Made by a program: the position numbers and the translations under genes. This document shows, piece by piece, positions 1-22,370 of a stretch of 22,370 nt of DNA. This stretch comes from Diplocarpon mali (lineage: Eukaryota > Ascomycota > Leotiomycetes > Helotiales > Drepanopezizaceae), in NCBI GenBank assembly GCA_024741835.1, contig JAENRP010000502.1, forward strand, positions 1,378-23,747, written 5' to 3'. The notes below the pieces were generated by a model, which saw only the letters and a list, made by a program, of their open reading frames with translations, did not search any database and was not told the origin of the DNA. The number at the start of each line of letters is the position of its first letter. The first letter of the stretch is position 1.

Positions 1-3
1 TTT

Positions 4-28
4 TACTTATAGACCAGGCCTAGGAGTT
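4..28. repeat. 25-bp palindrome copy 1
   Basis: Right arm GGCCTAGGAGTT, left arm eroded (TACTTATAGACC). Lies near the uncertain end of gene B; reading frame not assignable. Confidence 0.75.
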
Positions 29-305
29 AGAAAACGAAATTAGTAAAATAAACAAATAGGCTATAGAATTATAAAAATAATTAAAAATAGAACTAACTTA
101 AGTATTAGTTTTCCTTAGTTCTCTTTAAAGGATAGGGAGAACTATTACTAAATAATACTCTCTTTGCCAAACGACTACTTCTTCTTATAATATTACTATT
201 AATATCCGATGAGATAGGTCTTAGTATAGCAAGGGCCTTAGTAGTTTAGGCAGATGCTAGTATACTTTAGCGGCTTCTATTAATAGAAAGAGAGACTTAT
301 ATAAT

Positions 306-333
306 ATTATTATTATTATTATTATTATTATTA
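306..333. repeat. TTA microsatellite (poly-Asn in gene B)
   Basis: A run of about nine TTA units. On the minus strand after the frameshift it reads as poly-Asn within the low-complexity C-terminal region of gene B. Confidence 0.8.
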
Positions 334-419
334 TCCTTAAAGGAATTATTAGTAATAGAGGAAGGAGAGGCAGGAGATTCTATAGATACTACTTCCTTAG
401 CCTTACCCTTTGCTAGATC

Positions 420-444
420 AAGTTACGGACCAGGCCTAGGAGTT
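420..444. repeat. 25-bp palindrome copy 2, in gene B
   Basis: Right arm GGCCTAGGAGTT. After the A7 shift it reads ITPRPGP on the minus strand (major frame). Aligns with copy 6 in gene A. Confidence 0.75.
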
Positions 445-466
445 ATATCAAGTGTCTTTATATAAG

Positions 467-473
467 TTTTTTT
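467..473 (-). other. Frameshift at an A7 run in gene B
   Basis: Upstream codons (3568 to 1264) are in one register; the palindrome at 420-444 and the following KGKAKEVV-like sequence are in another. The switch fits a one-base change at this homopolymer (seven T on the plus strand). Confidence 0.55.
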
Positions 474-1240
474 ATACTATACTTCTTAAATAGAATTGTC
501 TTATTAATCATATTATCAGCTTTAATATTATCTTCTATATCTTTAGTCTTTATTTAAGACTTATTACTATATAACTATAGCTCTAGTTATTAAACTAGCT
601 TTTAGGTATTAGTAAAATCTTTAAAAAGTTCTTATTTATACTTCTTTAGATATACTATTAGCTAAGATATATCTTTTGCAAATAAATCCTTTATAGTTAT
701 TACTACTAATAGATTGTTCTATAATCTTCTACTTATAAGGGCCTTTGATAATAGACCACCTTTCGTTATACTAAGGGTTATATAGAACTTTGCAAAAGAT
801 TCTCTTACTATGCCTTATCTTAATAATTAAGGCTTCTTTATATTAATAGAATTGATAAGGAAATCTTTTAAATCAGCTCTATTCTTAAGCGTATTATTAT
901 TAATAACTTTTATATAATTATTATTAATAGTAAGAAAACCACCCTTCCTAGGCTCTCTATTAGAATCCAGGTTAATAAAAGTGCCTTATCTTATAAATAT
1001 AGAAAATAGAGTAGTCTTATTAAAGATATACTCCTTTAGAATTATTCTATCCTTAGTATTTAATTCTTTCTATTAAGCTGCGCTTTATACTAGGTTTAGC
1101 AAGATCTACTAAGAGTTTTTAAAATAATAGGATATAAGTATAAATGACTTATAAGACTTTTCTTATATAGTAAATTCCTTAATCGATTATTTAATAGTAG
1201 GAATTATATAATAGTTAATAGTTCTACTATTAAGAGAATT

Positions 1241-1265
1241 GACCTGCGAACTAGGCCTAGGAGTC
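1241..1265. repeat. 25-bp palindrome copy 3, in gene B
   Basis: Reads LTPRPSSQV on the minus strand in the gene frame. Aligns with copy 7 in gene A. Confidence 0.85.
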
Positions 1266-2470
1266 AATCTTACAAATCTTATATTAGTATCAATCTTAGT
1301 AGAAATAATTCGCAAATAGTAGTTAATGCTTATAAACTATATAGGCTTAGGATATACTACTAATTTATATAAAGAATTATAATAAGTTAATAGAATACTA
1401 AGATATAGACTATAGTATATCCTTAAGGTCTATTATATCAAGCTATAAGTTATATTATAAAAGAAGGCGGAAGGGGGGCTTAGCTTCTTATCTAAGGTCT
1501 GAAAATGGTATTAGTATATTTCTAGCTCTTCTTATACTATTATTAAAAATGAACTTTTTTTACAATTGCTATAACTATGCGTACGCATAGTACTTAAAAA
1601 GGCATAACTTAATAACTTAGGCATATTTAAGAAACCTTTAGTATAAAGTAATATTAGGGTATTTTTAGTTAGTATAGTCTTATACTAAGCAGGGGTCCAA
1701 GCGATATTATAAAACAATTTAAAGGCCTTAGGTGCTACTTTGAACTTAAAGAAACCTAATAATATATCTTTCTTAATTTAATTAGCCATTCTATTACTAG
1801 TAGCTATAATTGTATAGTTTCTAAGGTATAATAAGAATAGAGTTAGGTTAAGTGTAATGCAAAATTTATATATATTAAAGGAAACTTGCTTATTAGTTAG
1901 AGATACTATTATCAGCTTATAATATTATATATATTATCATTTATATAAAGTATAAAATTTTTCGAAATTGAAGTCTTTAAATATCCTTATTACAAATTTG
2001 CTTAATTGCGTCTTTATCTCTAGTATTACTGCAATCTTAAATCTATTGCTATATTAAAGTATTATCTTAATATTAAGGGAAACTTTATAGCATTTTATAG
2101 ATATAATTATTATGCTATTTTCTAGCTTTTCTTTAAGGATATAGTAGTCGCCTTTCGATTTCTTATACTTAATAAAGAAATATATAATATTATCTATAGA
2201 AAATTAGTCTTATTATAGCTTTATGATTTATTTAATAGCTCTTGCTATTGCTTCCTATGCTAGTAAAACTTCTCCTCGGCCTTCCTTCTTTAAATGTTTC
2301 ATTATTGACTTATAAAATTTAAGAATAAACTTTTATAAGTCCTTAGGGAAAGATTGTATAATATCCGCGATATCCTTTTTAGTATTATTAAAAATTTCCA
2401 AGATATTAGTAATAGTACTCCCTTCTTTATTTGATAAATCTTCTTTTAAGTCTATAATATTATGTACGCT

Positions 2471-2495
2471 AACCTATGGGCTAGGCCTGCGATTT
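2471..2495. repeat. 25-bp palindrome copy 4, in gene B
   Basis: Degenerate arms; reads NRRPSP, a stop, then V in the gene frame. No counterpart seen in gene A. Confidence 0.65.
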
Positions 2496-2656
2496 AATTT
2501 ATTTGCTACTAATGTTTGAGGTATTTAGGGCACTTCTAGGGATGGTGATTCAAACTCGTCTAAGTCGGAAGATAGGTAGTTGGGCTGGTGTTCTACTTAA
2601 GCTTTAGGTATTATAGGCACTTCTTACTTAGAGGCCTTATTATTATATGTTAATTC

Positions 2657-2681
2657 GACTTGTAGGCTAGGCCTACGAGTC
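2657..2681. repeat. 25-bp palindrome copy 5, in gene B
   Basis: Arms GACTTGTAGGCT and GGCCTACGAGTC around A. Reads LTRRPSLQV in frame. Aligns with copy 8 in gene A. Confidence 0.85.
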
Positions 2682-3568
2682 AAATTTTCCTTATTAGTTA
2701 GTTCTGCTAGAAGTGGTAACATTTTCTAGGCGGTAGGAACTATAAACTCCTATCTCTCTATCTTATTATTAAAGTAGTTTATAGTATACTTAATAAGATA
2801 GATCATCTTTTCTTTTATAATAAGTAAATTGTATTAGGACTATTATAGGCTGAGGGTATTTAAAATTGTCTGATCTAGGAGGGCTAAATTATTATATTAT
2901 ATAGGATCGTCTTTCATAGTCTAAATAGTAGAGTATATAATAGTGCTTAAGAACCCTATAAATTTTCTACTTTTCATATTATTGCCTTAGAGTTTCTTTA
3001 TACCTTTTTAAATAGTGAAGTGATTTAATACTTATATGGCCTTTGCTATAGGTTAGTATATCTTAAAAATTCTGCCTAGTCTTTGTAAGGTGTTATTAGC
3101 AGTAATATCGCTTATAAAGTAGGTCCAGAAGAGTATACTATAGGTGCTACTTATAAACTGTAATAATCTCTTTATACACTTATTCTTTTTATCCCGGTTT
3201 TTTCGAAATAAATCAACTAATGTAAAATAACTTTAATACTCTTATAAAAACTTTTCACAATTAATCCCTTTTACCTTAAGCTTACTCTTAAGGAAATCAT
3301 CAAAGCCTAGGAATCCCTCTTCAATTATGGAGATTCTCTAGTTAAGCATATTAATAGATGAGTTTAGGAATACTTGCTATTCTATTTCACTTAATGTTCT
3401 ATAAGTGGTTATAATATCTTTTAATAATCGAAGAGATTTGCTATCCTATAAGAATCCACCCTTTAATATTAGTTTATTATTAGCGGTATTTATTGACTTG
3501 CTGCCTGAGGTAATAACTGATATGCTTTTCTTAGGTATAGCTTTTTTATTTAAGCTTAATAGTACTAT

Positions 3569-4051
3569 AATGAATTAGTTAGCAAAAGGGTAGCTTTAAA
3601 TAAAGAGATAATTATTTAAGAAAGATTAATAATATAAGAGGCCTATATTAGAAAAGATTGATAATAGAAAGATAATAGTAGTAGTGCTAGTATTATAAGT
3701 CTAGTAGGGTTATAGAAAAAGTAAAAAAAGGTAAAATCGTAGTGCAAGGAGAGGCTTATTTATAGAGTTTGGATTCGCGCTAGTGTACAAAGGAAAAGTA
3801 GGCATAAAGAGGCTAGAAGTAGGAATAAAAGTAGGGTATAACGCATACAAGGACCTATAATTAGTAAATGATAATTATTAAAGGTAAGGACGATATTTCA
3901 AAGGTAAGTATTAGAAAGTTATATATAAAGGGAATAATTAAAGAATAAATTATATAAAGAGTAAAGTAAATAAAGAATATATATAGAATAGAATAATAGG
4001 TTAAGAATAAAGAGGTATAGGTATATAGAAAGTAGATAATCTTAAAAAAAT
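3569..4051. other. Intergenic spacer between genes A and B
   Basis: About 480 bases separate the stop of gene A from the inferred start of gene B. The stretch holds purine-rich A+T sequence and no long conserved frame. On the minus strand a CTATAAATAAG motif (plus 3756-3766) lies roughly 190 bases upstream of the inferred gene B start and could be a TATA box. A short hydrophobic frame at 3861-4055 is low-complexity and not convincing as a gene. Confidence 0.45.
3756..3766 (-). promoter_or_regulatory. Possible TATA box of gene B
   Basis: The minus strand reads CTATAAATAAG, about 190 bases upstream of the inferred start of gene B. In so A+T-rich a sequence this could be chance. Confidence 0.2.
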
Positions 4052-4303
4052 TCAACTTCTAATTCGCAATCTCTTCAAATGGTTTTCAAAGGGGGGGTAG
4101 ACTCGATTCTCTAAGCTTAAGTCGACTTAATTATCAATTCTATTATCACTTTAGAGTCTTCTTCTTTTATATTAGTTCTTATTTCTCGGCGATTTCTCAG
4201 CTTTAGGGACCTCTCTTAAAGGATCTTCTATTAATACCCTTAGATTTAGTGACTAAGGTTTATCTGAACTATCTCGTAGGCTTAAGCTAGCTAAGTCTAA
4301 CCT

Positions 4304-4328
4304 TACTTATAGGCCAGGCTTGCGAGTC
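4304..4328. repeat. 25-bp palindrome copy 6, in gene A
   Basis: Reads LTRKPGL, a stop, then V in the gene frame. Counterpart of copy 2. Confidence 0.85.
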
Positions 4329-5188
4329 AGTTTTAGCGTTTCTAAGCTTAAGGGTAAAAACAGGAGATTAGTTCCCAAATTAGGGTCTAATACTATACTA
4401 GTGTTTTAGTTTATCTCTTTTCCGAATTTTCTTATAATAATACCTTTATCAATTAGTATATTAAGCTTTCAAATAGCATTTACTTTATTATACTATCCCT
4501 AAGACTTGAATCTATAAAGAAGCGATTTAGTATTTATAATATTCGTCTAAGCTTTAATAAGGGCATTAAAGAGCTTCTAATTATATTCTATAAAGTAGAT
4601 TTTCAATTTGTCTTTATTAAAAAGAAATAACTCCTATACTTTAATTATAACCAATAGATCTATCTAAGAGCGTTAATCAATAATAGCTTTAAAGAGGCTA
4701 CTATAGTTCTTAAGATAAAAAGCTGCCTTAAAAGGTATAGTAATTCTACTTATATTAATCTATTAAAGTATTAGAGGTTGCTTTAAAGCAAAGATTGAAA
4801 AGATAAAATCGGAGATTCAAGTCTTATTTTCTAAAGTATTCTTATTATAGATAGCTATATAGTTATTATAAAAGGCTATAAAACCACTAGTCTTATAAGA
4901 ATTGTCCGAAAGCATTTTAAAAAGGTATTCCTATTTTATTATTATTATAATTGGATTGCTATTATTAGTAATAGGTCGTAAGATCTCCTTTTACTTTAAT
5001 TTTACAATTATTTAAGCTAGTTGAGATTTTGATCTAAGTGCTTAAGAAGTCTATCGACTTATCTTCTTTGCAAATAGAATAAGTTTTACATTCGACTAAG
5101 AGCCGACCTACCTATTAAGGCTTCTAAAAGCTGGCCCTTATCCAATCAGTAGGATTTAATAATCTAAGACTTACTTTCTAATAAAATT

Positions 5189-5213
5189 GACTTATAGGCT
5201 AAGACCGCAAGTA
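5189..5213. repeat. 25-bp palindrome copy 7, in gene A
   Basis: Heavily eroded; reads FTCGLSL, a stop, then V in the gene frame. Counterpart of copy 3. Confidence 0.7.
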
Positions 5214-6574
5214 AAAATCGGAATTTCTTTATTAATAGCATTTATATTTCTCTTTATTAAAACGATTTAATTATAAAGATTAAGGCCAATCAATTAAAGA
5301 GGTTCGAGGTAGGCCATAAGCTAATAGGTTCCTCTACTTCTCGCTATTATAGCTAAGAGGTAGAGTCTATAGTACATTTGAAGGACTTATTAAGTAAGAT
5401 TGAATATTATATTATAAAGAAAATAAGAAGGTATAAAGGTTATACTATCTATAAAGCGGAAGTGATAAAGATATATCTTTACTTCTTATCTTATAATAAA
5501 GAGGAATATACTTATAAAAGTACTATTATTAGTAGTAAAATTGTTAGTTAAAAAGCGGCATTTAAAGGGTTTAAGCATTATAATTAACCTTTCTTCCTTT
5601 ATTTCCTCCTACTATTTATTACTTAATAATATCGATAAGAAGGAATTGTTCTATTTAATTAGCTCTAACGCTTTTAAAGCTTTAAGATCAGCTTTGAATT
5701 TTATAGCACTTAAAGATGCCTCTATTATTAATAGGTTGGATTTGCGTATTCTTAAAGAGATAAAGAATTAATTATTAAAGTAGATTAGAAAAAGATCGAT
5801 ATCTTTTATTATATAAAGAAGTTCAAAGTATTTAATAGTTTTATTAATATTAAAGCCTTTATAATTAAGACTATAGTAAACCGAAAGAGAGCAAATATAA
5901 AGGTCGCAAAGTCTTCTCCCTTCGATTCTTACGCTAAGAAGATACTATCAAAAGCGAGTTTTTATTATAAAGGATACTTAAATATTATATCGTTCTTTAA
6001 GCTTAAGGTTAAGAATAACCAATTAAGGCATATTACTATAATTACAAATATCTTAATCAATAGATTCCTTTTCGCATTCTCTTTCTTATAAGATAAAATA
6101 GTCTCGCTTAGCATTTAAGAGACTAGGTTTTTAACTTTTATAATTATTAAAGAATTAAACAATATTCGTAAGGGCGAATTCGTCTAAGGTAAGCTATTAA
6201 ATCTATTTAATAGCTCTTTTAGTTATTTCTAAAGCAATAGGAATAGGGTCTTCCTTTATATTATCGTTTTTAAAGCAGTTATATATAGATATAAAGAAGT
6301 TAAGAACTAGCTCTTTTAAATTATTGAAGAAGGAGTCTAAATAGGTGCGCAATCCTTTGGTTTTAAATTGCAAATTAGCTAAGGTAGCTATTAAACAATC
6401 TATCCTTTTTAAAGGTTAAGCTAAAATTAGTTGTTTAGCTAAAGGAGAGTCCTTTAAAGATTTTAAAAATTCTAAAGAGGCTGCGCTAAGCGTTTGGGCA
6501 ATTTATTTAATATTAGTCTTTAGAATTATTTTAATAAAAGGCAAGTTAGGTCCAGTTTTAAAATTCTCGTTTCT

Positions 6575-6599
6575 AACTCCTAGTCTAGGACCGCGAGTC
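6575..6599. repeat. 25-bp palindrome copy 8, in gene A
   Basis: Reads LTRGPRLGV in the gene frame. Counterpart of copy 5. Confidence 0.85.
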
Positions 6600-7423
6600 A
6601 AATCATATAGTTTAGCACTTATTATATCTTTAAGCTAAAAGGCGAATTTCAAAGTAGGCTTAACTATAAATAACTAATTCCCTTCTTTATTATTAAAGAA
6701 ATCTTATTTAAATCCTAGTATAGGAGTCCAGTTCTCTTTTAAAATAAGCAAATTATAAGCAAAAGCGCAAAGCCTTAATATATTAATAATAGTACTATTA
6801 GGTAAGGTAATATCTATAGCTTAATTTGATCTTTTTATAGACTTATTAACTGCTATAAATATTATATTAAATAGGCCTATAAATCTGCGACCGCGAATTC
6901 GATTGCCTTAGAATTTTACTACTCCTTTTTAAATAATAAAGAAATTGAGAATCTGAATAGCTTTAGTAATAGGAGTATTTTCCTTAAGAATTTTTAATAA
7001 TACTTATCTTTTATTATTAGAATCAATATTTGTTAAGAAGCATAAACGAAATAAGAGTCCTCTTTTATTAGTGGCTAAATTATCCAATTGTCGAATAGAT
7101 TCTTTTCTTTTATCTTAATCCGTTTTAAAAGTATTGGCTAAGGTTATATATTAATCTGCATTAGCTAAGAATTCCTCTTTAAAGATTCCCTTTAGTTTTA
7201 ATTCTTTAATTAAGAAGTCGTCAAATTAGAGAATTCTAAGGGCCACTTAAGTTAAAAGGTTATTAATAGCATTTGCGTAAGCTAAAAGGAGTTTTTATTA
7301 CTCTATATCTCCTAAGGCTGCATAGGTCGATTTAAAGCTCTTTAATAATGCAATAGCTTTACTATCCTAAGAGAAGTTTATAACTAGTATTTATTTATCT
7401 CCTATTATAGTAGATAAAGCCAT

Positions 7424-7740
7424 TTATAAATTCTTTAAAGGCATATTACTTATAAAAGATAGGGAGTATAAATAAGAGAGTTTAATAGGATATAAGAATT
7501 AAAAGAGCATATAAGCTATAATAGGTTTACTATAAATATATATAAAGGAAATTGGACTTTTTTTTATTATTTAAAGAAAGTAATAAGAATACTATAATTA
7601 AAGGCTAATATTAAGAATATAAAATAAGTCAAAGCAGGCAAGAATTTAAAGTGATCCTAAAAGATCTATATCTTAAATAATAAAGGAAGCAACCTTACCG
7701 AAAATGTAAAAATAAAGATTAAAGAAAGGTAAGACAATTA
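7424..7740. other. Spacer between gene A start and the Gypsy-1 pol end
   Basis: This A+T-rich stretch should hold the 3' LTR of Gypsy-1 if that element were complete. I found no copy of the terminal sequence seen at 15248 (TGTGACATATATC on the minus strand) and no polypurine tract followed by TG. It may instead be the promoter region of gene A: several TATA-like strings occur on the minus strand around 7530-7560. Confidence 0.35.
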
Positions 7741-7838
7741 ATAGGCTAAGAAATTGTTTAATATTCCTATTTGCATTCTTTGGATATTTTAAGAATAATA
7801 ACTTAAGGTTGCAATTAATTAGGTATTTTAATATTCTT

Positions 7839-7863
7839 TACTTATAGGACCGGCTTATAAGTT
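7839..7863. repeat. 25-bp palindrome copy 9, Gypsy-1 pol C-terminus
   Basis: Reads LTYKPVL, a stop, then V in the pol frame (major frame). Confidence 0.75.
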
Positions 7864-8834
7864 AAGTTGGAAAAATCTTAGTCTTTATCTAAGGGTTTAA
7901 AGTTGCTTATATTGCTATCAGTTCTTATAAAAGATTCGGAGGTTATATCAATTTCTAATTCGTCTTCTAAAGGGAATAAGGTTTGATCGCATTAATAAAA
8001 GCGCTTTAATTAGTTGGCTATAAAGGTTCCTTTAATATTAACTCTATTAAGTTCCTAAAGAGAATAGTATCCCTTTTCTTTCTACTTAAACTTAACCTTA
8101 AATAGACTAAGCTATTAATAGTTAAGTTTAGTATCTACTAATATATTAATACTTTTTATAATATTATAGACTAGGATAAGATCATCTTTTCAAATAAGAT
8201 GCGTTTTAAGTACTTTAGAAGCAGCCTATGCTTCCTTAGCTTTTTCCTAATATTATTTCTTTTGCAAAATGATTTCCTTTATATTTATATTTTAAAGCTT
8301 AAGTTATTAGTATTTTATTATAAGCAAATTAGAATAGTTCTAAATTTGATTATAGTCGAATAATCTTTAAATAGGCTATCGGGATTTAAAAGGGAGCTAT
8401 ACTTCTCTACTATAAATAAGGAAAAATAGTATAACTCTAGTCGGTTTATAAATTGTCATTTAATAAGTAAAGAGTATTTTATAAAAGTATTTTATCTAAT
8501 TCTTAAATCCTCTATAAGTAACTTTAAATAGCCTATTAAGAATATCGCGATATCTTTACTCTACTACTCTATTAGCTTTTAAGTTATATACTGAGATTTG
8601 AACCTATTTAATGCCATATTTTCGCAAAAAAGCTTTAACTACTCTTTTATTTTCAAGGCCCTTATTAATAGTTAATCTACTAAAAAGTCTATAGCAATAG
8701 ACTACGTCTTCTTAAAGGAACTTTATAATAGATTCAGAATTAGCAGATCTTAAAAGTCGTCCTTTAGGCCATCCTAATAAGTCTTCCTTTACTAAAATAA
8801 AATATATAATCCTATTTTCAATTATTAGTACTTA

Positions 8835-10621
8835 TATAATATTAAGACTGACTTTATAAAAAAGGCCTAATAGCTAGGTTAGGAATAAGGGATTCTCTTT
8901 ATAATTAGGTTTTCGTTTCTAATAAAAGATATAACTTTTCATAAAAGCTTTACAGTCTTTAAAAGAACCCTTTTAAAAGAATTTCCTTAAGAGTTAGTAG
9001 TAAGTAGACTTAGCTCCTTAGTGGCTAGTTTCCTTATAAATATCTTAGATAGCTTTAGCCCTTAGTTTTTCATTATCTAAGTAGAGTTATATAAGATATA
9101 AGTTATCGCTTCTTTTAAATAATCGTTTTCCTTATATTAGATAAATTAAAGCTTTAGCTTTGAATTTCTGAAAATCCTTAAAAGTAACTATCTTTAGTTA
9201 TTTAAGTATAATTAAAAATTTCGCAATTTCTTTAAAGTCACTTAAGTAGTCAAGTAATAAAATTCTCTTATTTAACTCGCAAGCTAGGACTATAAGTCGA
9301 GTCCCTTTAAGGCAATATATTAATAGATAATTAACTTCGTTTTCTACCTACTTATTAATATCTATTTTATCTTCTTTAATTAAATTAAAGGGGTAGGGAT
9401 AAGTTCTTTTTAAAAGGCTATTAGTAATACTATTTTTCGTCCTTAGAATATATTTAACTTTAAAGTCCATTAGTCTTATTTAAGCAATCCATTTTATTAG
9501 TAAAGCTCTTAATAGATTGCTTATAGTTTTATTCAATTATTCTACTAGTACTTTAGTATTAGTTTCGAAGATAAAGTAAGTGCTATAAAGGTTGCTTCTT
9601 ATCTTTTTCATCGCCTTTAAAGCGCTTTTATATTCTTACTTAATAATATTATACTTTATTTCTACTAGATTCTAAAGACCACTTTTAAAGCAAGCTAGAT
9701 ATCTTTTCTATTAGCTATTAGCTTGCTAAAGGATAGTACCCTATTTGATTAAGCTTGCATTAACTATTAGTATAATTGGCCTAGCATCGGCTTTATAATC
9801 TATTTTGATTAGATATAGCACTTTAAGTAACGCTTGCTTTAGTTGTTTTATAACCTCTATTTAAGGTTCCTCCTATTAAAACTTAGCCCCTTTCTAAAAT
9901 AAGGAGTAAATAGGTACTGCCTTTTTAATAAAATCCTTGATTTATATATAATAGTATACTATAATATTAATAAACGCGCGAGCTTCTGCTATATTATTAT
10001 ACCTCTTCTATTTATCGATTTTAAGTACTTTAGCCCTTTAAGGACTTTAGCTATTAGAATCTATAATAAAACTAATAATTTCTATTAATAGGAGATAGTA
10101 TTATAACTTTGGGCCAACTATTGCTCTTGCCCTTTCGAATTATATAAGCACCTAGTCCAGGTTTTAAATATGTTCTATTATAAATTATTATATATTAAGG
10201 AGAACTTCTTTATAGTTATAGAATAATCTTAATCCTTTTACTCTTATATTATCTATATAAGGGAGCGTAATATTAAGTATATAATCTATTAGTATTTTAT
10301 AGATTACTTAAATAAATTAAGCGATCGAATTTATAGCCTCTTAAGGTAATCTTATTATCTAAAGTAGCTTAAGAGGAGTTTAAATTACTATTATATCTTT
10401 TGATTTAATATTAAGAATAAATTAGTTATATTTAAAGAAGAAGTTAATAAGAGAGCTATAGGTTAATCCTATAAATTCATTTAAGAATTCATTTATATTC
10501 AAAGGAATATTAGCGTCTTTAATAGTTACTCGGTTTATCTTTACTACTACTATTATTAGTCTGTAAGTTCCCTTCTCTTTCTTAGTAATTAAGAACTATT
10601 TATTCTTATAAGGGCTATTAT
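8835..10621 (-). repeat. Left arm of large inverted repeat (Gypsy-1 RT to integrase)
   Basis: This stretch matches the reverse complement of 16378-18175 nearly end to end. Differences are mostly C/T and G/A exchanges, as expected when RIP hits two copies independently. The match ends exactly where Copia LTR termini begin on the other copy. Confidence 0.85.
9274..9298. repeat. 25-bp palindrome copy 10, Gypsy-1 integrase N-part
   Basis: Read in the second frame (RLIVLACEL). Same site as copy 15 in Gypsy-2. Confidence 0.85.
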
Positions 10622-11240
10622 AGAACTTAAGAATACCTTGCTTTAGCTTATCCTTTAATATTTCGATTACCTTTTCTTAAAGAGCTTTAAAGACTTCGAA
10701 TGTTTTCTCTTACTAAGCTTTATAGGGTATTGTCTTAATCTTAATATAAGGCGTGACTTCTTTTCGAATCTGGCCTAGTTCCGTTTAGTCAAAAGCTAAG
10801 GCGTCCTTTTAATTTATTAAAGTTTTATAAAGTAGTTTGCGTTTTTACTTTATTAAGTTATCTTTAATTTTTAGTATATTAAAACGTTCTTTTATTAGCT
10901 AATATCTAATAGGTTTATTAGAAAATCTGCCTATAATAAACTTATCGAATTTGCCACCTAGCTTTAGAGGTCGAAGCTTCTTATCTTATTTAAACTAATC
11001 ATCTAAGCCGCTAGGCTTTAAGCTATTAGAGATTCCCTAATCTACTAGTTATACTTTATCGGCCTTGCTTTTATATATAGTTCAAATATTAACTAGTACT
11101 ATACTTCTCTACTTCTTTCCTTTTTTATTAAATCTTATAAAATGGTTCGAATTTTCCTTTTTAAAAATAAATAAAAGATTTTCTAAATCGTTAATTTAAA
11201 GTAGATAGATAGAAATATTATTAGTAATTTTATTGTTTTT

Positions 11241-11265
11241 CACTTATAGGTCCGGTTTATAAATA
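11241..11265. repeat. 25-bp palindrome copy 11, Gypsy-1 pol N-part
   Basis: Reads IYKPDL, a stop, then V in the pol frame (major frame); both arms C-to-T eroded. Confidence 0.7.
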
Positions 11266-11402
11266 GTTTTTAGGTTTTTTAAAATAATTGGTAAATTATT
11301 AAAATTTATAAAACGAACTCTCTTTTCTACCTTATTTTTCTTTTTTCTTAATTATTAAGCTAATAAAACGCCGATTATACTATTCTTTAAAATTCCAAAT
11401 TT

Positions 11403-11427
11403 AACTCTTAGTCTAAGACCGCAAGTT
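11403..11427. repeat. 25-bp palindrome copy 12, Gypsy-1 pol N-part
   Basis: Reads LTCGLRLRV in the pol frame, exactly 54 codons from copy 11. Confidence 0.75.
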
Positions 11428-12939
11428 AAATTGCTATTATTTAAAATCGGCAAACTTACCTTTCTTTTACTATAACTCCTTGCTAAGTGCCTTCCTTTAC
11501 TAGCATTAAGCCTAGCCCTTATACTAGCTAATTGTTTTTTAAAACCTTATTTTAAAATTCGGCTATATCTCTTGCGATAACTATTTGTCCTTTTAAAGAT
11601 CGATCTATATTTTAAAAACTAGCTTTTATAAGACTATTTCTAGGATAGTTAAATATTAGCTAGGATTTTAAAATAAAGGGCATTCTTAAAAGAATATTAT
11701 TTGAAGAATTCTCTATTATTAGAAAGTTAGTATAATTAATAATTTCTCTAACTCTAACCTTTATATTTTTCACCTATCTATTAAAATTGTATTTCGATCT
11801 AAAGATAGTTGAATAAATAAGGAATCGATCGCTAACAATTATTAATTGAGCCATTTTTACCACTTTTCTAATTATTATATTAACTTTTGAACTATAATTG
11901 ATTAAAGCCTTTACTTTAATTAATTCTTTTATAAAATAAATAATAATAAGGCTTTTTATCGCAACTACTAAACAATTTCGATTAATATTTTAAGATATTA
12001 AAGCTATTACTATAATATCGTAGTACCTTTAGATTCCTTTATCTTTTATAATCTAAAGATATTTAATTAAAGTTAAGTGCTTTTCAAAGTTCTTTTATAT
12101 TACAATTTCCATTTCCTTATTATTATTTAAATCTTTAAAGGCAATTAAGATATGCTTTCTTAATACTTTATTAAAGTATCTAATTAAACTAAATAGGTCT
12201 TTAAACGTAAGGTTAATTTACTAAACTATAATATTCTCTATAGCTTTCTCTATTGCAATTAAACTAGCGTATTTATTAATGAATTTTTCCTATTTTAATA
12301 TCTATCTCTTTCGCTTAAGGTTAAGGGTCTATACAATAACTTTAACTTCTTGATCTTTAAGTTTAAAGCTATCTTTATCTATTATATCTCTAATCAATTC
12401 GTCTGCTATATCGGCTTTATCCTTATCTACTATAGTTTCAAATTATTAAGTATCTTTTAGCATTTAAACTCTATATTAAGATTCTTAAGTTATACGTATT
12501 GATTTCTGGACTTTAGCTGGTTTTATTAGTATTAAAGGAGTAGTAGATCTAAAAGGACACTAAGTATTCTAAGGGTTTTTAAATATAAAAGTAGCATTAA
12601 TATTAATAGATATGTTATTATTAACCTACTTTAAAATAGAGATACCTTTGATTTTAGTAGTAGTCTAGTTCGAAGTTTAATTAATAAGTACTTCTTTAAG
12701 TAGATTGCTAGCTAAACCTATATATATATAAGTTAGGACCTTAGAGTTGATTTCGATAATACGCTTCTGTTCGGCCAAATCCTTATCTTACTTTATACTA
12801 TATATTATTATTTGAATAGTCTATAGCTATAAACGATTCTAGTGTTTTTTAATAGAGATAGCATTTAGTCTAAGATCTCTAATGTAAAGCATCTTATACT
12901 TATTAATATATATAACCTTAGTATTAATAAAATGATAGA

Positions 12940-13006
12940 AAAGAGGGCAATTGTTGCAATACTTATATAGAGTATAGTTAGGTTCTTTATTATTGCAAAA
13001 GTTGCA
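12940..13006 (-). other. Gypsy-1 zinc-knuckle-like motif
   Basis: The minus strand encodes CNFCNNKEPNYTLYKYCNNC (first CxxC codons at plus 12995-13006). This is a Cys-rich knuckle in which expected His residues now read Tyr, as C-to-T mutation of CAC/CAT would give. Such knuckles bind nucleic acid at the end of retroelement Gag. The spacing is not the textbook CX2CX4HX4C, so the call is tentative. Confidence 0.4.
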
Positions 13007-13318: not shown

Positions 13319-13343
13319 TACTCTTAAGTTAGGCCCGCGAGTG
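13319..13343. repeat. 25-bp palindrome copy 13, Gypsy-1 gag
   Basis: Reads FTRGPNLRV in the gag frame (major frame). Confidence 0.8.
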
Positions 13344-14327: not shown

Positions 14328-14352
14328 TACTTATAAGCTAAGCCTAGGAATA
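14328..14352. repeat. 25-bp palindrome copy 14, Gypsy-1 gag N-part
   Basis: Arms TACTTATAAGCT / AGCCTAGGAATA. Read in the second frame (ILFLGLAYK). Confidence 0.7.
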
Positions 14353-14954: not shown

Positions 14955-15248
14955 CTATAAACCAAAAGATTGATAAGGTTATATAAGGATAGAAATCTTA
15001 AGAAATCGGTCTTTGCATAGGTTACTAATATAAAATAGAAGGGAGATAATATAAGAATAGGTCTAAGGGAAGACTTAAAAACAAAAGGAGGAAGTACTGC
15101 AAGCAGGCTCTTTTAGATAAGATATTAAGAATAAGTCCTAAGTATAGGGTATATTTAGTACTTATGGCGATGCGCGCTGTCTTTATATATAGAAGATAGC
15201 CCTTTTATCCTCCTACTGTCCTACGCTGATCATATGATATATGTCACA
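14955..15248 (-). repeat. Likely 5' LTR of Gypsy-1
   Basis: Read on the minus strand, the segment starts TGTGACATATATCATATGATC, has a TATA-like box (TATATATAAAG, plus 15182-15192) about 60 bases in, and ends near a TGGTTTATAGATAAGAG string that could be a primer-binding site (TGG start). The inner boundary is approximate, and no second copy is present in the window to confirm it. The start coincides exactly with the break in the Copia-B gag homology. Confidence 0.45.
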
Positions 15249-15850
15249 AGACCTATCTATCTTAGGTCTCTATATTATCTTTATCTTTTCTATATTAAAA
15301 TAAAGTGATCTGCTATAGTAAATACTAAGTATTAAAGGTAGTTATCTAAGAGTATTTTACCTTTAAAGTATCCTATCTTATCTTTATATTATTATAAACT
15401 TAAATAAAATCTTAGTCTTTATCGCTTAAACCTCTATTGATCTTAAGCTTACATTTAGCTAAGGCCAGCCTATACTCCTTCTCCTTTTCAATATTTAAAA
15501 TCTACCTTTAGGATTCTTAGTTATTATCTACTAAGGCTCTTAGGCTAAGCTTATTTAATATATTTAGCAAATCCTTAGTAGTTATATTAGCTATTAAAGT
15601 AGAAGTAGACAAATCGGTAGAAGGAGTATAAGAGGCTATCCTTGCATATTTAATAAGTGTCTTTTAAATCGCTATTTTAATGCCTTTACTCTTAAAGTAA
15701 AGCTCTAAATCGTAGAACCATTATTGCTAGTTCTTTTAAAAGAGTTAGAGGTCTCTAGGCCTAGTATTTCGATCAGAATTAGAAGCTATTGCCGTTTCGA
15801 ATAGAATTGCGTTGAAAATCAAATAAATTAAATAGTTAAGAGCATTCCTC
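15249..15850 (-). pseudogene. gag: Copia-B gag, N-terminal fragment
   Basis: A minus-strand frame from about 15850 to 15249 reads with Gln/Trp-type stops only. It includes QQWFYDLELYFKSKGIK when the stops are taken as Gln, resembling the tryptophan-plus-KG block at the start of Copia Gag (UBN2-like) proteins, then TKDLLNILNKLSLRALV and a charged segment EKEKEYRLALAKCKLK. The start codon is not certain. The frame ends at the Gypsy-1 LTR. Assignment to gag rests on position downstream of LTR and primer site plus this weak motif; it could be another element-encoded ORF. Confidence 0.45.
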
Positions 15851-15944
15851 CTGTCGAAAGGTTGAAATGATTAAATAGCAGGTATTATAGAAGTATTAAA
15901 TAGGGAGGAAGTCCTCTTATCGAAAAGGGTTTTTAGGCTATAAC

Positions 15945-16076
15945 GCAGGGAATTATACCTTTTACAAAATATAGTAAAGTAAGGAATCATACCTCTTGCA
16001 GTACCAAAGGGTTATAGAGTAAGGAATCATACCTCTTGCAATACAGGTTAGCTAAATAAGGAATTATACCTCTTAT
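15945..16076. repeat. Four tandem short repeats in the Copia-B leader
   Basis: The core AGGAATCATACCTCTTGCA or close variants start near 15948, 15981, 16021 and 16058, at 33-40-base spacing. The inner two are near identical, the outer two carry C-to-T changes. They lie between the primer-binding site and gag. Role unknown; packaging or promoter repeats are possible. Confidence 0.7.
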
Positions 16077-16182
16077 TCGCCGATTGCTCGCCTCTTACTA
16101 TAAGTCTCGTTCAACTTCTTATTAATAGTTGCAGCGCAAGTGCTTTCTAAGGGAAGTTAATAATCTATTATCGGTCTAGCTA

Positions 16183-16194
16183 GGGCTTATAACC
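16183..16194 (-). other. Copia-B primer-binding site
   Basis: The minus strand reads GGTTATAAGCCC directly after the LTR end. It matches, with one G/A change, the GGTTATGAGCCC-type site in Copia elements that prime from an internal fragment of initiator methionine tRNA. This places the LTR boundary and supports the Copia assignment. Confidence 0.6.
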
Positions 16195-16377
16195 TATTAA
16201 GCTTAAGTGAGTCGGCGCAGTAGGTAAAGGAGGCTTCTAGAGGTCGATGGTCGATATATTAATAAGAGTTAAGGAAGGAAGGTTACCCCTTTCTTCCCTA
16301 TAGCTATATACGTATCAATATCCTACTGACTAAGCAATAGGGTCATATGATAATATATCAAAGTGATAGCTGTATCA
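16195..16377 (-). repeat. Copia-B 5' LTR
   Basis: On the minus strand it begins TGATACAGCTATCAC and ends TTAATA just before the primer-binding site; with RIP reversed in thought, the ends would be the usual TG...CA. A TATA-like run (ACGTATATAGC) lies around 16303-16313. The outer end coincides with the first base of Gypsy-2 homology. Confidence 0.55.
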
Positions 16378-18175
16378 CCCATCTTAATATAATAGCCCTT
16401 ATAGGAATAAATGGTTCTTAATTGCTAAGAAAGAGAAGGGAACTTATAGATTAATAATAGTAGTAGTAGAGATGAATAGAGTTACTGTTAAGGATGCTAA
16501 TATTCCTTTAAATATAGATAAGTTCTCGAATGAATTCGTAGGATTAACCTATAGCTCTCTTATTAACTTCTTCTTTAGATACGACTAATTTATTCTTAAT
16601 GTTAAATTAAGAGATATAATAGTAATTCAAACCCCTTTTAAGCTACTTTAGATAATAAGATTACCTTAAGAGGCTATAAATTCGATCGCTTAATTTATTT
16701 AAGTAATCTACAGGATATTAGTAGATTATATACCTAATATTATACTCTTTTATATAAATGATATAAGAGTAAAAGGATTAAAATCATTCTATAATTATAA
16801 AGAAGTTCTTCTTAGCATATAATGATTTATAATAGAATATATTCAAAACCTAGACTAGGTGCTTATACGATTCGAAAGGGTAAGAGCAACGGTTAGTCTA
16901 AAGTTATAATACTATCTTCTATTAATAGAAATTATTAGTTTTATTACTAATTCTAATAGCCGAAGTCTTTAAAGGGCTAAAGTACTTAAAATCGACAAAT
17001 AGAAGAGGTATGATAATATGGCAGAAGCTCGCGCATTTATTAGCGTTATAGTATACTATTGCATTTGGATTAAGGATTTTACTAAAAAGGCAGTACCTAT
17101 TTATGCCTTATTTTAAAAAGGGGCTGAGTTTTAATAGGAAGAACCTTAAATAAAGGCAATAAAACAATTAAAGTAAGCGTTGCTTAAAGTGCTATATCTG
17201 ATTAAAATAGACTATAGAGCTAAAGCTAGGCTAATTATACTAATAGTTGATATAAGCTTAATCGGATGGAGTACTATCCTTTAATAAGCTGATAGCTAAT
17301 AGAAAAGACATTTAGCTTACTTTAAAAGTAGTCTTTAGAATCCTATGGAAATAAAGTATAATACTATTAAATAGGAATGTAAAGGCGCCTTTAAAGTAAT
17401 AAAAAAGATAAGAAGCGACCTCTATAGCACTTACTTTATCTTTGAAACTAATGCTAAAGTGCTAATAGAACAATTGAATAGAGCTGCAAGCGACCTATTA
17501 AGAGCCTTATTAATAAAATAGATTGCTTAAATAAGACTAATAGACTTTAAAGTCAAATATATTTTAAAAATAAAAAATACTACTACTAATAGCCTTTTAA
17601 GAAGAACTCGTCCCTACCCCTTTAATTTAATTAAAGAAAATAAAATAGATATTATTAAATAAGTAGAAAACGAAGTTAATTATCTATTAATATATTATCT
17701 TAAAGGAATTCGACTCGCAAGCCCGGCCTACGAGTCAAATAAGAGAATTTTATCACTTAACTACTTAAGTAACTTTAAAGAAATCGTAAAATTTTTAATT
17801 ACGCTTAAACGACTAAAGATAGTTTCTCTTAAGGATTTTCAAAAGTTTAAAGCTAAAGCTTTGATTTATCTAGTATAAGGAAGGCGGTTATTTAAAAAGA
17901 GTAATAACTTATCTTTTATATAACTCTATTTAGATAATAATAAACTATAAGCTAAAGCTATTTAAGATGTTTATAAAGAGATTAGCTATTAAGAAGCTAA
18001 GTCTACTTACTACTAACTCTTAAGAAAATTCTTTTGGAAAGGTTCTTTTAAAAACTATAAAGCTTTTATAAAAAGCTATATCCCTTATTAGAAACGAAAA
18101 CCTAATTATAAAGAGAATCTCCTATTCTTAACTTAGCTATTAGGCCTTTTCTATAAAATTAGTCTTAATATTATA
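16378..18175 (+). mobile_element. pol: Gypsy-2: internal Ty3/Gypsy fragment, inverted relative to Gypsy-1
   Basis: The plus strand encodes the same RT-RNase H-integrase segment as Gypsy-1. It starts at NSPYRNKWF (16391 onward), has RT box YIND where YxDD is expected (near 16757-16768), an RNase H segment near 17235-17280, and the integrase zinc-binding region up to about 18130. It stops at 18175 at the first base of the Copia-A LTR, and at 16378 beside the Copia-B LTR. Unlike Gypsy-1 it still encodes Trp in NKWF. It carries the palindrome at the same position as Gypsy-1 (17712-17736 against 9274-9298), so that palindrome was in the common ancestor. The missing Gypsy-2 ends probably lie beyond the Copia insertions or were lost. 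Confidence 0.85.
17712..17736. repeat. 25-bp palindrome copy 15, Gypsy-2
   Basis: Arms GACTCGCAAGCC and GGCCTACGAGTC around C. Second frame (RLASPAYES). Same site as copy 10. Confidence 0.9.
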
Positions 18176-18405
18176 TGTAGCAAGGAGGTTCTCTGATAGT
18201 GAACTTGATAGTAAACTAGAAGAGGGCACGAAGAAGTATAAGGTGCAAACGACGATGTTAGGTATCTTGATTCATAAGAGCTCTCTAACTACGAGCTATT
18301 TAACAAGGGCTGCTACTAAGTTATATAGTAAGTTATATAATATATTATATATATGATATATCATATAATAGATTATATAATAAATATGTAACAGGTATAC
18401 TTACA
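18176..18405 (-). repeat. Copia-A 3' LTR, about 230 bp
   Basis: The minus strand starts TGTAAGTATACCTGTTACAT right after a purine-rich GAGGGG tract, and ends CCTTGCTACA, giving TG...CA termini. The outer end is fixed independently because Gypsy-2 homology stops at 18175. The middle part (18320-18385) is nearly pure A+T. The flanking 5-base target duplication would be TTATA or similar, but the other side is outside the window. Confidence 0.75.
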
Positions 18406-18420
18406 ATATACCCCTCTAGG
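18406..18420 (-). other. Copia-A polypurine tract region
   Basis: On the minus strand CCTAGAGGGGTATAT precedes the TGTAAG start of the LTR. A purine-rich tract next to the 3' LTR primes plus-strand DNA synthesis in LTR retrotransposons. Confidence 0.5.
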
Positions 18421-18685
18421 GAGACCTTTAAAGGTACTTGCTAGCAATATATATAATATTATAACTTTTGTTATAATCTATAGTTTCGTATGAAAAATCA
18501 ACCTGCAGATATAGGAAATAGAGTAGAGTTCGCTAGCGCGTTCTACTTTAGAGTAGGAAATCTACCCTTTAGTAAGTCAAAATCAACTCGCGGGTCTGGC
18601 CCAGGAGTAGAAAAAAAAATCACCACTTAATAGAAGTATAAAAAAAAAATCACCTTATAATAGAGGTGCGAAAAAAAATCACCTC
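18421..18685. other. Copia-A untranslated tail
   Basis: About 265 bases between the pol stop and the polypurine tract. It holds one palindrome (18585-18609) and most of the 30-bp tandem repeat array that overlaps the pol stop. The remaining 18421-18580 shows no feature I recognise. Confidence 0.5.
18585..18609. repeat. 25-bp palindrome copy 16, Copia-A untranslated tail
   Basis: Arms AACTCGCGGGTC / GGCCCAGGAGTA. Outside the coding frame, directly next to the 30-bp tandem array. Confidence 0.8.
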
Positions 18686-18700
18686 TTAATTAAGGTGCAG
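18611..18700 (-). repeat. Three 30-bp tandem repeats, each a hairpin plus T-tract
   Basis: Units 18611-18640, 18641-18670 and 18671-18700 are each 30 bases. On the minus strand each unit has a CACCT...AGGTG-type inverted repeat followed by 8-9 T, a terminator-like shape. The innermost unit spans the last codons and stop (18686-18688) of Copia-A pol. A related block, without the T-run, follows the palindrome at 20607-20627. Confidence 0.75.
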
Positions 18701-20482
18701 AACCTTCATATTTAACAATTTGATAAAGGCGGCGTGGTTAGAGCTATTTAAGCTCTTAGTAAGGCCGTCGGCGGCGTTATCTTTAGTATTTGTATATTAA
18801 AGGTCCAAATGGCCTTTCCGAAGTTCTTATTAAATATAATAGAACTTGATATCGATATGCTTTGTTCTCTAATAATATTCGGGGTTTTCGATAAGATAAA
18901 GGGCTCTTTAGTTATCGCAGATCATCTTAACTTTAGTAGCATCGTCGCTAGCATAGCCTATTTCCTTAAGTACCTAGCGTATTTAAGAGGCCTCTTATGC
19001 GAATTTGCATATAGCGACGTACTCTGCTTCTATAGATAAGAGAGCGATAATAGTCTATCGCTTAAAGGAGGCGGTAATTACGCCATTATTAAGGAAGAAG
19101 ACGGCCCTAGAATAAGAGGCTCTACTTCCTTTATTACCTACTTAATCAGAATCGCAATAGCTATGCAATTTCTAAAGCTCTAAGTCAGTTGTTTTACTTC
19201 CGAAGGTAGTATAATAAAATTGCGTTCTTTATAAGTACTATAAAACTTGTTTTAAAGCTGCCATATATTATAGCGAAAGGTTAATAAGGAATTTGCTAAG
19301 AATAGAGCAGTAGTATAGTATATCCTAATACGTATAGTGCATAAGGTACTATAGAGAACCATAGATCTCCTAGTATAGCTTCACTTCCTATAGAGTGGCT
19401 TAGCCTTTAAATTTGACTATATAAACTTTATAACCATTAGCAAAAGGCGTTAGTACGCTTTTGCAATTAGTTATATAAAAACGTTTAAGAACCTTATTAA
19501 TATAGGCGTCTTAATAAAGTAAGATTGTTCTATTTTATTAATCTTTAACTATATATACTTTTAAGAAGTAGTTAGCCGGTTTGCTACTTATAATCTCGAA
19601 GAGGTTGCGAAGATCTCTCTTAAACTTATTATATATATTACCCTTCTTTACTACTATAAGGAAGTCGTTAATATAGGTAATAATAAGAATCCGAGAGGCG
19701 CAGTTGATATATATGCAATTGTTAGTATCAAGAGGTTGAAAATCGAGCTTTTATAGCTTAGACTATAGCTTTTCTTACTATAATTATAAAGATTACTTTA
19801 AGCTATATAAGGCCTTAAAAAGCTTAAGATAGTAGTCTTAAGGTAAAAGAATAACCTTATCTTAAGTATATCTAAGAGGTAACTTGATATAGATATTAGA
19901 GTTAGCTTCTAAATTAAGGAAAGCTATCTTAATATCGAACTAATCTAGCTTAAAGTTATATAGCGCTATTAATGCAATTGCGATCTTCTAAACTGTAAAT
20001 TTGCAGACGCTAGCAAAGGTTTAGTTGTAATCTCGACCTTATCATTGCATATAGCCTTATATAATAAATCTGACCTTCTATTAGGAGATTTCCCTATTTT
20101 GATCTCTTTTTATTTTAAAGACAAGTCTCGATCCGAGTACTCTATTATCTTTAGAGAGTTCTAAGCGTTTCACTACTACTTATATATTCTTATAAGCGAG
20201 GGAATTATACTTAGAGTTGATCGCAGATCGCTATTTGTTAGCGTTAGCGCGAGAGAGGGCTTGTTTGACTATTTTCAGGTTATTTAAGTATAGAGAGTTA
20301 AGTAAGGCTATATAGAAGGCGCTTAAATAGGCTTTCTTATTATTAGAGTTGTTAGCTTTAAATCTAAGAGTATGAGTTGAGCGAGCAGCTCTTTTCTCAG
20401 AAGGCTAAGGGTAAGCCTTATTCCTTAAACTAAGAGGTCTTCCTCTCTTTCTTAGAGTTGGAAGTTCAGCTTCTCCTAAATC

Positions 20483-20507
20483 GACTTATAGTCCTGGCCT
20501 AGGAGTG
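20483..20507. repeat. 25-bp palindrome copy 17, Copia-A linker
   Basis: Reads FTPRPGL, a stop, then V in the pol frame. First of three in about 125 bases. Confidence 0.9.
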
Positions 20508-20536
20508 AAATTATCATTATCGTAAGAGTCAGAATT

Positions 20537-20561
20537 AACTCGCGGTCCTAGCCTAGGAGTG
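20537..20561. repeat. 25-bp palindrome copy 18, Copia-A linker
   Basis: Reads FTPRLGPRV in the pol frame. Confidence 0.9.
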
Positions 20562-20581
20562 AAATCGGGAGATTTAGAATT

Positions 20582-20606
20582 GACTCGCGGTCCTGGCCTA
20601 AGAGTG
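20582..20606. repeat. 25-bp palindrome copy 19, Copia-A linker
   Basis: Reads FTLRPGPRV in the pol frame; followed on the plus strand by AAATCACC, as in the 30-bp array. Confidence 0.9.
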
Positions 20607-21994
20607 AAATCACCCTTTAATTAAGGCTCTATAATTAGGCCGTCTTTATCGAATCAAACGTAAGATGATTGAATAATCTTATTATCTATTTATAATAGTA
20701 TATAGATCTGATAAATACTTCTACTATTAAATCCGATAAGAGTACCTACCTCTGCTCTTAGAGCGAGTTTATTGCTCTAAGTTCGCTTTTCTTTCTCAAT
20801 TAGTATATAGATGCAATAGCTTAGTACTTAAAGATGCTTGATTAAGGGAGTATAAGGCTTATTAGGCTTAATATTATCTTAAAAGATCTTATATAGAGTC
20901 TTGCTACTTAGAATATTAAAGGCGGTAAGATTAGTAATATATATTATTAAAAGAAGGAGGTAAGGCTAGAGAAAGGAGGGGATATTTTAGTCAATTACAG
21001 CTATTTGCAACTTTTCTATTAGTATGCGAATTAATTGTTCTAACCTGCTGTCTTATTCTAGTATATATAGAGTAGATTCCTTTAAAATCATACTAAGGTT
21101 TTCTATAAGTATTCATATCTATATAAGAGAGTACTCCTTGCCTCTATCAGTTCTCTACTACTTAATTATACGATTATACTAAATTTATAAAAGGCTGATT
21201 ATCTTCTTATTTGCCTTAAAGGCATTAGATTTATTTATATAGGTCTATCCCCATCTAGCTATTATAGCTAAGCAAGTGAAGATAGAAGTGTATTTATAGC
21301 TATTAAAGTCAGTTGGCTTTAAATGAACTATATTAACGTATAGCTTATCAAGTGCCTTTGTAAGTCGAGGGCGAGCTAAACGTTTATTAATATATTAAAG
21401 AGGTCTGCCTTTCTTATAAAGAGCGCAGATTCGCATCTTCCTTAATTTTATTTCCTTAATCTGTATATTAGTAATAGCAGATTAGGTCTTTTTAACCGTT
21501 TATAAGCTAGCGTGGCCTAATCGATAGTACTAGAGCTTAATATTAAGAGGTCTATTCTTAATAGCAGCTAAGAGAGCATATTCACTTATATAACTAAAGG
21601 ATTTAGTAAAAGGCTATTCCTTATTAATATATATATTATTATCAATAGTGCAAATTTCCTTCTTATTAAATAGGAATAGCTTGCTATTTTAATAGAAGCC
21701 TTTGATTTTATTAAATTTACTACTTAAGTATAAGTAGATAGGTAATTAAGGTATATAAAGAGTATTAATTAACTTAAGAATATATACCTTTCTATTGGAT
21801 TTAAGTGCATTAACTTTGCAAGTGCTAACGCCGAGAGGTTAAATAGATCTATTAACTATACTTAAAGAGGGTAGATTATCTTGAGTAGTATAGGAGGTGA
21901 ACTTAAAGAGATTATTAAAGATATGCTTACTAGTACCTATATTATATAGCTAACAATTCCTCAATTTTAATAAGAAGTAGGAGGTAGAAGAACT

Positions 21995-22019
21995 GACTCC
22001 CGGGCCTGGCCTGCGAGTG
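21995..22019. repeat. 25-bp palindrome copy 20, Copia-A Gag/protease linker
   Basis: Reads STRRPGPGV in the pol frame; least RIP-damaged copy, within an 83-codon stretch that is still open. Confidence 0.9.
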
Positions 22020-22060
22020 GAAATTGGCCCTAGGGAGGAGTCGCCTTTTAGTAAGGAATT

Positions 22061-22085
22061 GACTCCTAGGCCAGGCTCGCAAGTG
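22061..22085. repeat. 25-bp palindrome copy 21, Copia-A Gag/protease linker
   Basis: Reads LTCEPGLGV in the pol frame, 22 codons from copy 20; both are followed on the plus strand by AATTGGCCCTAGGG. Confidence 0.9.
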
Positions 22086-22370
22086 AGAATTGGCCCTAGG
22101 GTTAGTAATAGTATAGTATACTTAAAGAGGTTATTATCTAACTCTTTATCTTCCTTTTGAATGTTCCTAAAAGGCTTTTTACCTTTTAGTAATAATAGCA
22201 AGGATTTATCGTCCTTGCCTTTAAGGTAATAGAATATATACTTCTTTCCTAAGTCCTTCTCCTAGGCCTCTCTTTTCGATTTGTTAATTGCGAAGCAATC
22301 TTTTACCTTATAGTATAACTCTAGTTGCTTATAATAAGGATAGGAGGAGTTAAGGGAGGTAGTAGTATTC

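Follow-up and report, generated by a model that had tools for sequence, protein, structure and literature searches.

A contig of the ascomycete Diplocarpon mali (JAENRP010000502.1) holds a block of retroelement remains in which a short palindrome recurs inside the coding frames of several different elements. The window, that is, the whole stretch of DNA analysed, comprises 22,370 bases; the genome as a whole amounts to 49.4 Mb and is split into 676 contigs. On balance, we lean towards the view that the palindrome is an ultrashort, near-palindromic and possibly mobile DNA insertion module, dispersed among retroelements only and tolerated in the linkers between protein domains. The same bases recur, in both polarities, in the elements termed Copia-1, Copia-2, Gypsy-1/2 and Gypsy-3 and in a lineage formed by types A and B, and they are present in coding linkers as well as in non-coding 3′ parts.

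The module as a DNA sequence

The window has a GC content of 23–39%, and CpA/TpG is strongly depleted relative to ApC/GpT (0.33–0.76 per kilobase), which is the signature of repeat-induced point mutation (RIP). Because this block has been RIP-mutated, its frames are dead and stop-rich: element frames of 617–1223 codons each carry 40–79 stops, and the longest stop-to-stop stretch is 103 codons. Palindrome copies were called with a RIP-tolerant profile at a score of at least 11, which yields 21 copies in the window and none in each of five first-order Markov shuffles, bearing out the number given in an initial annotation of this DNA; a mismatch scan of the window finds 17 places at up to nine mismatches.

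That annotation had taken a perfect palindrome with CCTAGG arms, read as TPRPGLGV, to be the ideal form, and both turn out to be products of RIP and CpG decay. Less-mutated copies, 23 of which were drawn from nine loci (L046, L047, L050 and L052–L057), centre on ACTCGCGGKCC-N-GGMCCRGGAGT, and we infer that the CCTAGG arms arise by CpG and RIP mutation of CCCGG or CCAGG. Nine of the 23 fit this form exactly and the others differ at one place at least. The form reads TRGPGPGV one way (as do ten of the 23 copies) and TPGPGPRV on the other strand. In addition, G stands opposite G at positions 5/19, which gives the module a polarity. It is less palindromic than first described, since RIP lends the arms additional apparent symmetry.

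The core of the module, ACTC...GAGT, is 23 bp long and has a free base beyond either end; RAWTY-like flanks usually enclose it, and the conserved context is about 35 bp long. Across 35 site representatives, which include several units of the same arrays and from which one chance match (L040) had first been dropped, the central and two outer bases are free, whereas ACT has T at its third base in 34 representatives and GGA has A at its third base in 34. Since third codon bases are conserved, the identity lies at the DNA level. The initial annotation had allowed that the peptide might be an ancestral protein motif, but the same bases are also found in copies that are non-coding and in copies read in a second register.

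Genome-wide, the less-decayed form has 917 forward and 902 reverse matches at up to three mismatches, a mixed form 592 and 573 at up to one mismatch, and the form of the initial annotation 118 per strand at up to three mismatches, with no genome match for any of the three forms in a reversed-pattern control. Because of the near-palindromy, forward and reverse counts are largely the same sites, and the genome thus holds at least 900 copies. This high number stems mainly from a few ancestral sites that their carriers multiplied. A control sample of 200 kb, taken from large contigs as twenty 10-kb pieces with fixed coordinates (41–55% GC each, with some AT-rich parts), gave no copy at up to one mismatch to the RIP-tolerant pattern, against 20 in the window; two profile matches of at least 11 in this sample (11.0 in L028 and 11.5 in L040) are taken as chance in GC-richer DNA.

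Forty match loci (20, 10 and 10), chosen from the listed matches rather than at random, all fall into a few retroelement families. The first 30 defined the carriers as type A, Copia-1, Copia-2, Gypsy-3 and a relative of Gypsy-1, and the last ten belong to the Copia-1 3′ region (two), the Copia-1 linkers (two), the Copia-2 array (two), the Copia-2 3′ region (one), the Gypsy-1 relative L001 (two) and Gypsy-3 (one). The suggestion of a palindrome that is mobile in genes generally is therefore not upheld, as the loci examined are all retroelements and the 200 kb sampled elsewhere contain no convincing copy. Bacterial and archaeal genomes gave no match, and IMG/VR a single match to the degenerate pattern in 2.9 million contigs, which is taken as chance (L051, contig IMGVR_UViG_3300007799_000029, 7132–7154).

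Copies in the window and their reading register

Sixteen of the 21 copies lie in the register that reads T-x-x-P-x-x-x-V (hereafter the T register), which reproduces the earlier tally of 16 sites. Three others (9274, 17712 and 14328) lie in another, non-frameshifting register, and two (7839 and 18585) are without a clear frame. The register was judged from stop densities in the six registers of each copy, from homologous loci and from Pfam-anchored frames, the domains having been placed with stops read as X; the minus-strand T register in the stop-density scan is taken, on our own reading, as start−1. The initial annotation had described 19 copies inside long, unbroken coding frames: the 16 and the three are consistent with this, but the frames themselves are RIP-dead.

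Type A is a frame of about 1100 codons on the minus strand (about 4.2–0.3 kb, the homologous frame being at 300–3600), and type B a frame of similar length on the same strand (7.45–4.05 kb, 4050–7450). Neither has a Pfam match, and they are homologous to each other at 31% identity. A protein search with the 2483-residue type B frame gave no match, under a length filter that would miss proteins near 1100 aa. In type A, the copies at 4..28 and 420..444 are in the T register only via homologues at L002:1075 (where the flank is partly N) and L002:1501, respectively, and those at 1241..1265 (TPRPSSQV on minus), 2471..2495 (without counterpart in type B) and 2657..2681 (TRRPSLQV on minus) are also in this register. 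In type B the T register is found at 4304..4328, at 5189..5213, where it is assigned by alignment to type A and is second-lowest in stops, and at 6575..6599 (TRGPRLGV on minus). Two places are aligned between the types, 1241/5189, with opposite polarity, and 2657/6575.

The RIP-damaged Gypsy-1 pol frame (7901..11498, minus) contains RNase H and an integrase H2C2 match below the curated cut-off, and the corresponding Gypsy-2 frame (16400..18250, plus) contains RNase H. The Gypsy-1 copy at 9274..9298 lies between RNase H and the integrase zinc domain in the other register, and the Gypsy-2 copy at 17712..17736 shares both its site and its register. Two copies upstream of a stretch resembling reverse transcriptase (11241..11265 and 11403..11427) and one in a region that is gag-like by eye (13319..13343) are in the T register; that on the 5′ side of the gag-like region (14328..14352) is not. 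The copy near the Gypsy-1 3′ end (7839..7863) has no clear coding frame. Its outer flank on the sense-downstream side is similar to the one at L001:94 (the copy homologous to 14328), and these may be Gypsy-1 terminal repeats.

The RIP-damaged Copia-1 polyprotein frame (18701..22369, minus) contains RVT_2 and SH3_retrovirus. Three copies lie in its SH3–RT linker: 20483..20507 (T register, FTPRPGLXV), 20537..20561 at a distance of 54 bp from the first, and 20582..20606 at 45 bp from the second. Two more lie in the linker between gag and Pol_BBD, at 21995..22019 (T register, STRRPGPGV) and, 66 bp away, at 22061..22085 (LTCEPGLGV). The copy at 18585..18609, downstream of the matched polyprotein, is taken as non-coding. 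Downstream of Copia-1, at 18585–18705, A-rich units with TCACC...TTAAT following form a minisatellite, and on visual inspection a portion of it seems to be repeated next to the palindrome near 20606. In addition, a 95-codon open stretch at 18752–19036 (plus) runs antisense to the Copia 3′ end and is probably a chance product of a low-stop register.

Given the homology of A and B and the site common to Gypsy-1 and Gypsy-2, the window contains three unrelated lineages rather than the four unrelated element types first proposed. Likewise, the five copies in the Copia polyprotein collapse to about two events by in-frame tandem duplication. With tandem units and shared places collapsed by hand and with Copia-2 and Gypsy-3 added, 13 of 15 coding events are in the T register (P 3.1e-5 at one third per register), and the window alone gives 11 of 13. 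Stops as the cause of this bias are ruled out: the less-mutated sequence is, on our reading, stop-free in every register, and TAG stops come from decay. The 9274/17712 site keeps the frame although it lies in the other register, so that register and the keeping of frame have to be considered separately.

Wherever Pfam domains could be placed, coding copies sit between them; the Gypsy-3 copy was placed between RNase H and H2C2, and a weak gag_pre-integrase match (E 0.096) follows the Copia-2 array. This location at junctions in Copia-1, Gypsy-1/2 and Gypsy-3, and adjoining one in Copia-2, together with the 13 of 15 events in one register, might suggest selection on the peptide, TRGPGPGV/TPGPGPRV being a polyprotein linker or protease-cleavage module exchanged between elements. 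We regard this as very unlikely, however, as copies are also found past a stop codon (L046 and L049) and downstream of Copia-1 (18585), the site common to the two Gypsy families is in another register, synonymous positions are conserved, and both peptides are opposite-strand readings of one sequence.

In coding arrays, the spacing of neighbouring copies within 120 bp is divisible by three in 42 of 42 pairs (39, 45, 48, 54, 66, 87 and 90 bp), compared with three of ten pairs elsewhere; these pairs are copies of few families and not independent draws. Nine of the ten come from one 3′ region (61, 64 and 66 bp) and one from L001 (118 bp). In L046 and L049 the stop codon precedes this 3′ region, to which L004, L017 and L020 are assigned by similarity. 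The region probably belongs to Copia-2 and is so called because, on contig C55, the L047 array is found on the same strand at a distance of about 3 kb. Within a family, array size varies mostly by units of 45, 48 or 93 bp.

Proposed arrival in the linkers and competing explanations

The closest relative of the Copia-1 frame is a protein of 1491 aa from Diplocarpon coronariae (P0001; 68% identity over the whole query), located on a 4.8-Mb contig, and the next is P0002 from Rhynchosporium graminicola (41% identity). Assemblies of D. coronariae measure 50–54 Mb with about 30–32% retroelements, as given in the excerpted text of the source (PMC11527701). P0001 contains TREPGPGV at residues 354 and 370 and TPGPGPRV at 849, 864 and 880, and these five peptides fall at the five Copia-1 palindrome places of the window, the counterparts being FTPGPGPRV for 20483, STREPGPGV for 21995 and LTREPGPGV for 22061. 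They lie in the linkers from gag (ending at 220) to Pol_BBD (starting at 392) and from SH3 (ending at 828) to RVT_2 (starting at 991). The motif is absent from P0002 and from the other 31 proteins retrieved.

Linker 1 measures 52 residues in P0001 and 26 in P0002, that is, 26 aa fewer. In P0001 it contains PGPI-L/S-TREPGPGVNSS twice in tandem, a 16-residue unit, and with one unit subtracted the excess over P0002 is 10 residues, i.e., 30 bp. This excess is no more than a hint, given that the length of linkers of this kind drifts. The duplicated stretch lies at residues 349–380, and the PGPI in its unit looks like one half of a module. For the Gypsy elements, an outgroup search gave three matches; one of them, P0031, was aligned (23%) and leaves the palindrome places uncovered.

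Of the earlier proposal of a mobile in-frame palindrome, the part that finds support is a module defined at the DNA level that recurs in unrelated coding contexts, in both polarities and mostly in one register, and that is absent from an outgroup Copia at one linker; neither a clean target duplication nor a polymorphic empty site was found. Several further observations weigh against an insertion module. The arms of the less-mutated copies pair at only 4–10 of 11 positions, and two of three folded 25-mers fold no better than shuffles, while the third folds well. The register count rests on collapsing by hand and on stop densities in RIP-damaged DNA, and the empty site on a rapidly evolving linker of a single outgroup protein, P0002; no alignment was possible for the second Copia linker. 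No shortfall of 25–30 bp was seen at 17712 in any of the 40 best of 256 matches or at 13319 in any of the 40 best of 303, each set including the window's own copy. An all-against-all locus comparison yielded no empty site, its long gaps involving the palindrome being array units or alignment splits. The places shared by types A and B can be inheritance or repeat hits. Finally, direct repeats show no single duplication length: across all sites, offsets of 24, 29, 30, 31 and 33 are mildly above permutation (z about 1.7–3.5), and a target-site duplication is not claimed, as permutation (1024 boundary settings, then 18 offsets) leaves only this mild, spread-out excess.

The flanks bear on how the module arrived. 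Apart from the RAWTY-like context, little is common to the lineages, which argues for precise arrival. Among cross-lineage flanks with the palindromes masked, however, 5 of 1876 pairs score at least 30, against none in two shuffle rounds, and nine score at least 28, against 3.5 in shuffles; arrival may thus not always have been precise. Four of the five pairs join type B with Gypsy-1, and their flanks are AT-rich. Because of this excess, we rate the insertion module slightly lower, and slightly higher the rival that no insertion element exists and that a GC-rich minisatellite unit of single origin was carried with its neighbouring sequence by recombination or template switching. Tandem units do gain and lose copies, a 16-residue unit stands duplicated in tandem in linker 1 of P0001, and to the eye the similarity between 18585 and the 20582 linker seems to extend about 15 bp past the palindrome. 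We nevertheless consider this origin decidedly unlikely, since the flank excess is small, AT-rich and mostly between type B and Gypsy-1, and the other lineage pairs share no more than the short RAWTY-like context. A GAATTTTA-like string is found 5–9 bp outside palindromes 6575, 11403 and 17712 (type B, Gypsy-1 and Gypsy-2); it is either chance in AT-rich DNA or part of a longer module.

Another explanation, which we hold to be unlikely, is a functional cis site, acquired and kept by retroelements in several copies each, at which a dimeric protein binds or the RNA forms a hairpin that serves in packaging or regulation. It would fit the restriction to retroelements, the symmetric core with its free central and outer bases, the presence of several copies per element in both coding and 3′ non-coding parts, and the number of paired arm positions, which is 271 of 385 against 255 under permutation (P 0.001). 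However, RIP level is a confounder of this pairing excess, a regulatory site does not need one codon register, and at the two places that types A and B have in common the palindrome is about as decayed as the flanking sequence (identity of 0.71 and 0.50 inside and of 0.47 and 0.43 in the flanks, with 0.71 as the 95th percentile of 8-codon windows). Selection for a hairpin is likewise not taken as proven, as RIP shifts both arms together; of the three folded 25-mers, one folds well.

If the insertion module is accepted, some 15–20 arrivals would have brought it into several mutually unrelated lineages of retroelements (Copia, Gypsy and an unclassified one) in a Diplocarpon-like fungus. The length gained each time would have been divisible by three, probably 30 nt (10 codons), and the survivors would be the copies in flexible linkers and in one register, the T register perhaps surviving best because a Gly/Pro loop is read from both strands. 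Subsequent growth would have been passive, by in-register tandem duplication (units of 39–90 bp) and retrotransposition of the carriers, followed by destruction through RIP. As to transfer, our preferred guess is reverse transcription, with strand switching between co-packaged RNAs at the hairpin, because only retroelements are seen to carry the module. In its strongest version, the palindrome would be the equivalent, in the nuclear DNA of a eukaryote, of protein-coding palindromes, an ultrashort selfish module confined to retrotransposons that jumps between unrelated Copia and Gypsy elements during reverse transcription in shared particles and survives as a multiple of three with, in one register, the same harmless loop on both strands; this version is tentative and rather unlikely.

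Relation to known palindromes and meaning

The initial annotation named as analogue the Rickettsia palindromic elements (RPEs), which are read in both polarities. RPEs are about 150 bp long and lie in frame, nearly half of them in ordinary bacterial genes, according to the excerpted account (PMC10969869). The likeness is that of a palindromic repeat present without frameshift in unrelated coding sequences, with a recurring peptide and, in the module, both polarities; 16 window copies in the T register and three in another, in several lineages, agree with it. The module differs from RPEs in its size, its core being 23 bp (about 25–35 bp in all), in being fungal, and in its location, as it is seen only in retroelements and not in host genes, judging from the 200-kb sample and ten of ten late loci, which are a sample and not the whole genome.

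Miniature inverted-repeat transposable elements and bacterial palindromes of the repetitive extragenic palindromic type are tiny non-autonomous repeats with inverted symmetry; unlike these, the module has neither internal sequence nor a resolved target duplication, nor is a transposase known as its partner, although no search aimed at one with matching ends was made. Translational bypass hairpins occur in Magnusiomyces mitochondria, and the peptide in P0001, a predicted sequence, says nothing on bypass in the cell. The GC clusters of yeast mitochondria (GC42 and kin) are short, dispersed, GC-rich palindromes with a movement mechanism that the consulted portion of the source calls unresolved (PMC4478555). 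The module is likewise short, GC-rich, palindromic and dispersed, but it resides in Copia and Gypsy elements with RIP and has a homologue on a 4.8-Mb contig, whereas GC clusters are mitochondrial and are not described as in-frame coding in that portion. In the filamentous ascomycete Fusarium, mitochondrial palindromic microsatellite repeats are optional and have been argued to be mobile (PMC7218506, in part); unlike the module, they are A/T runs in mitochondrial DNA, largely intergenic, with no coding register described in that part of the text. Among the open PMC matches listed (at most 15 per search, of up to 273), titles and abstract openings describe no nuclear in-frame palindrome of this kind in fungi, subscription literature being outside this scope, and five peptide strings do not occur in the open PMC papers searched.

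If the module is mobile, in-frame palindromes would not be a peculiarity of Rickettsia, and retroelements would themselves harbour parasites, of a size far below that of the usual non-autonomous elements. Even as a shared linker, it would mark the exchange of tiny pieces of DNA between unrelated retroelement lineages and could be used as a tracer of such exchange.

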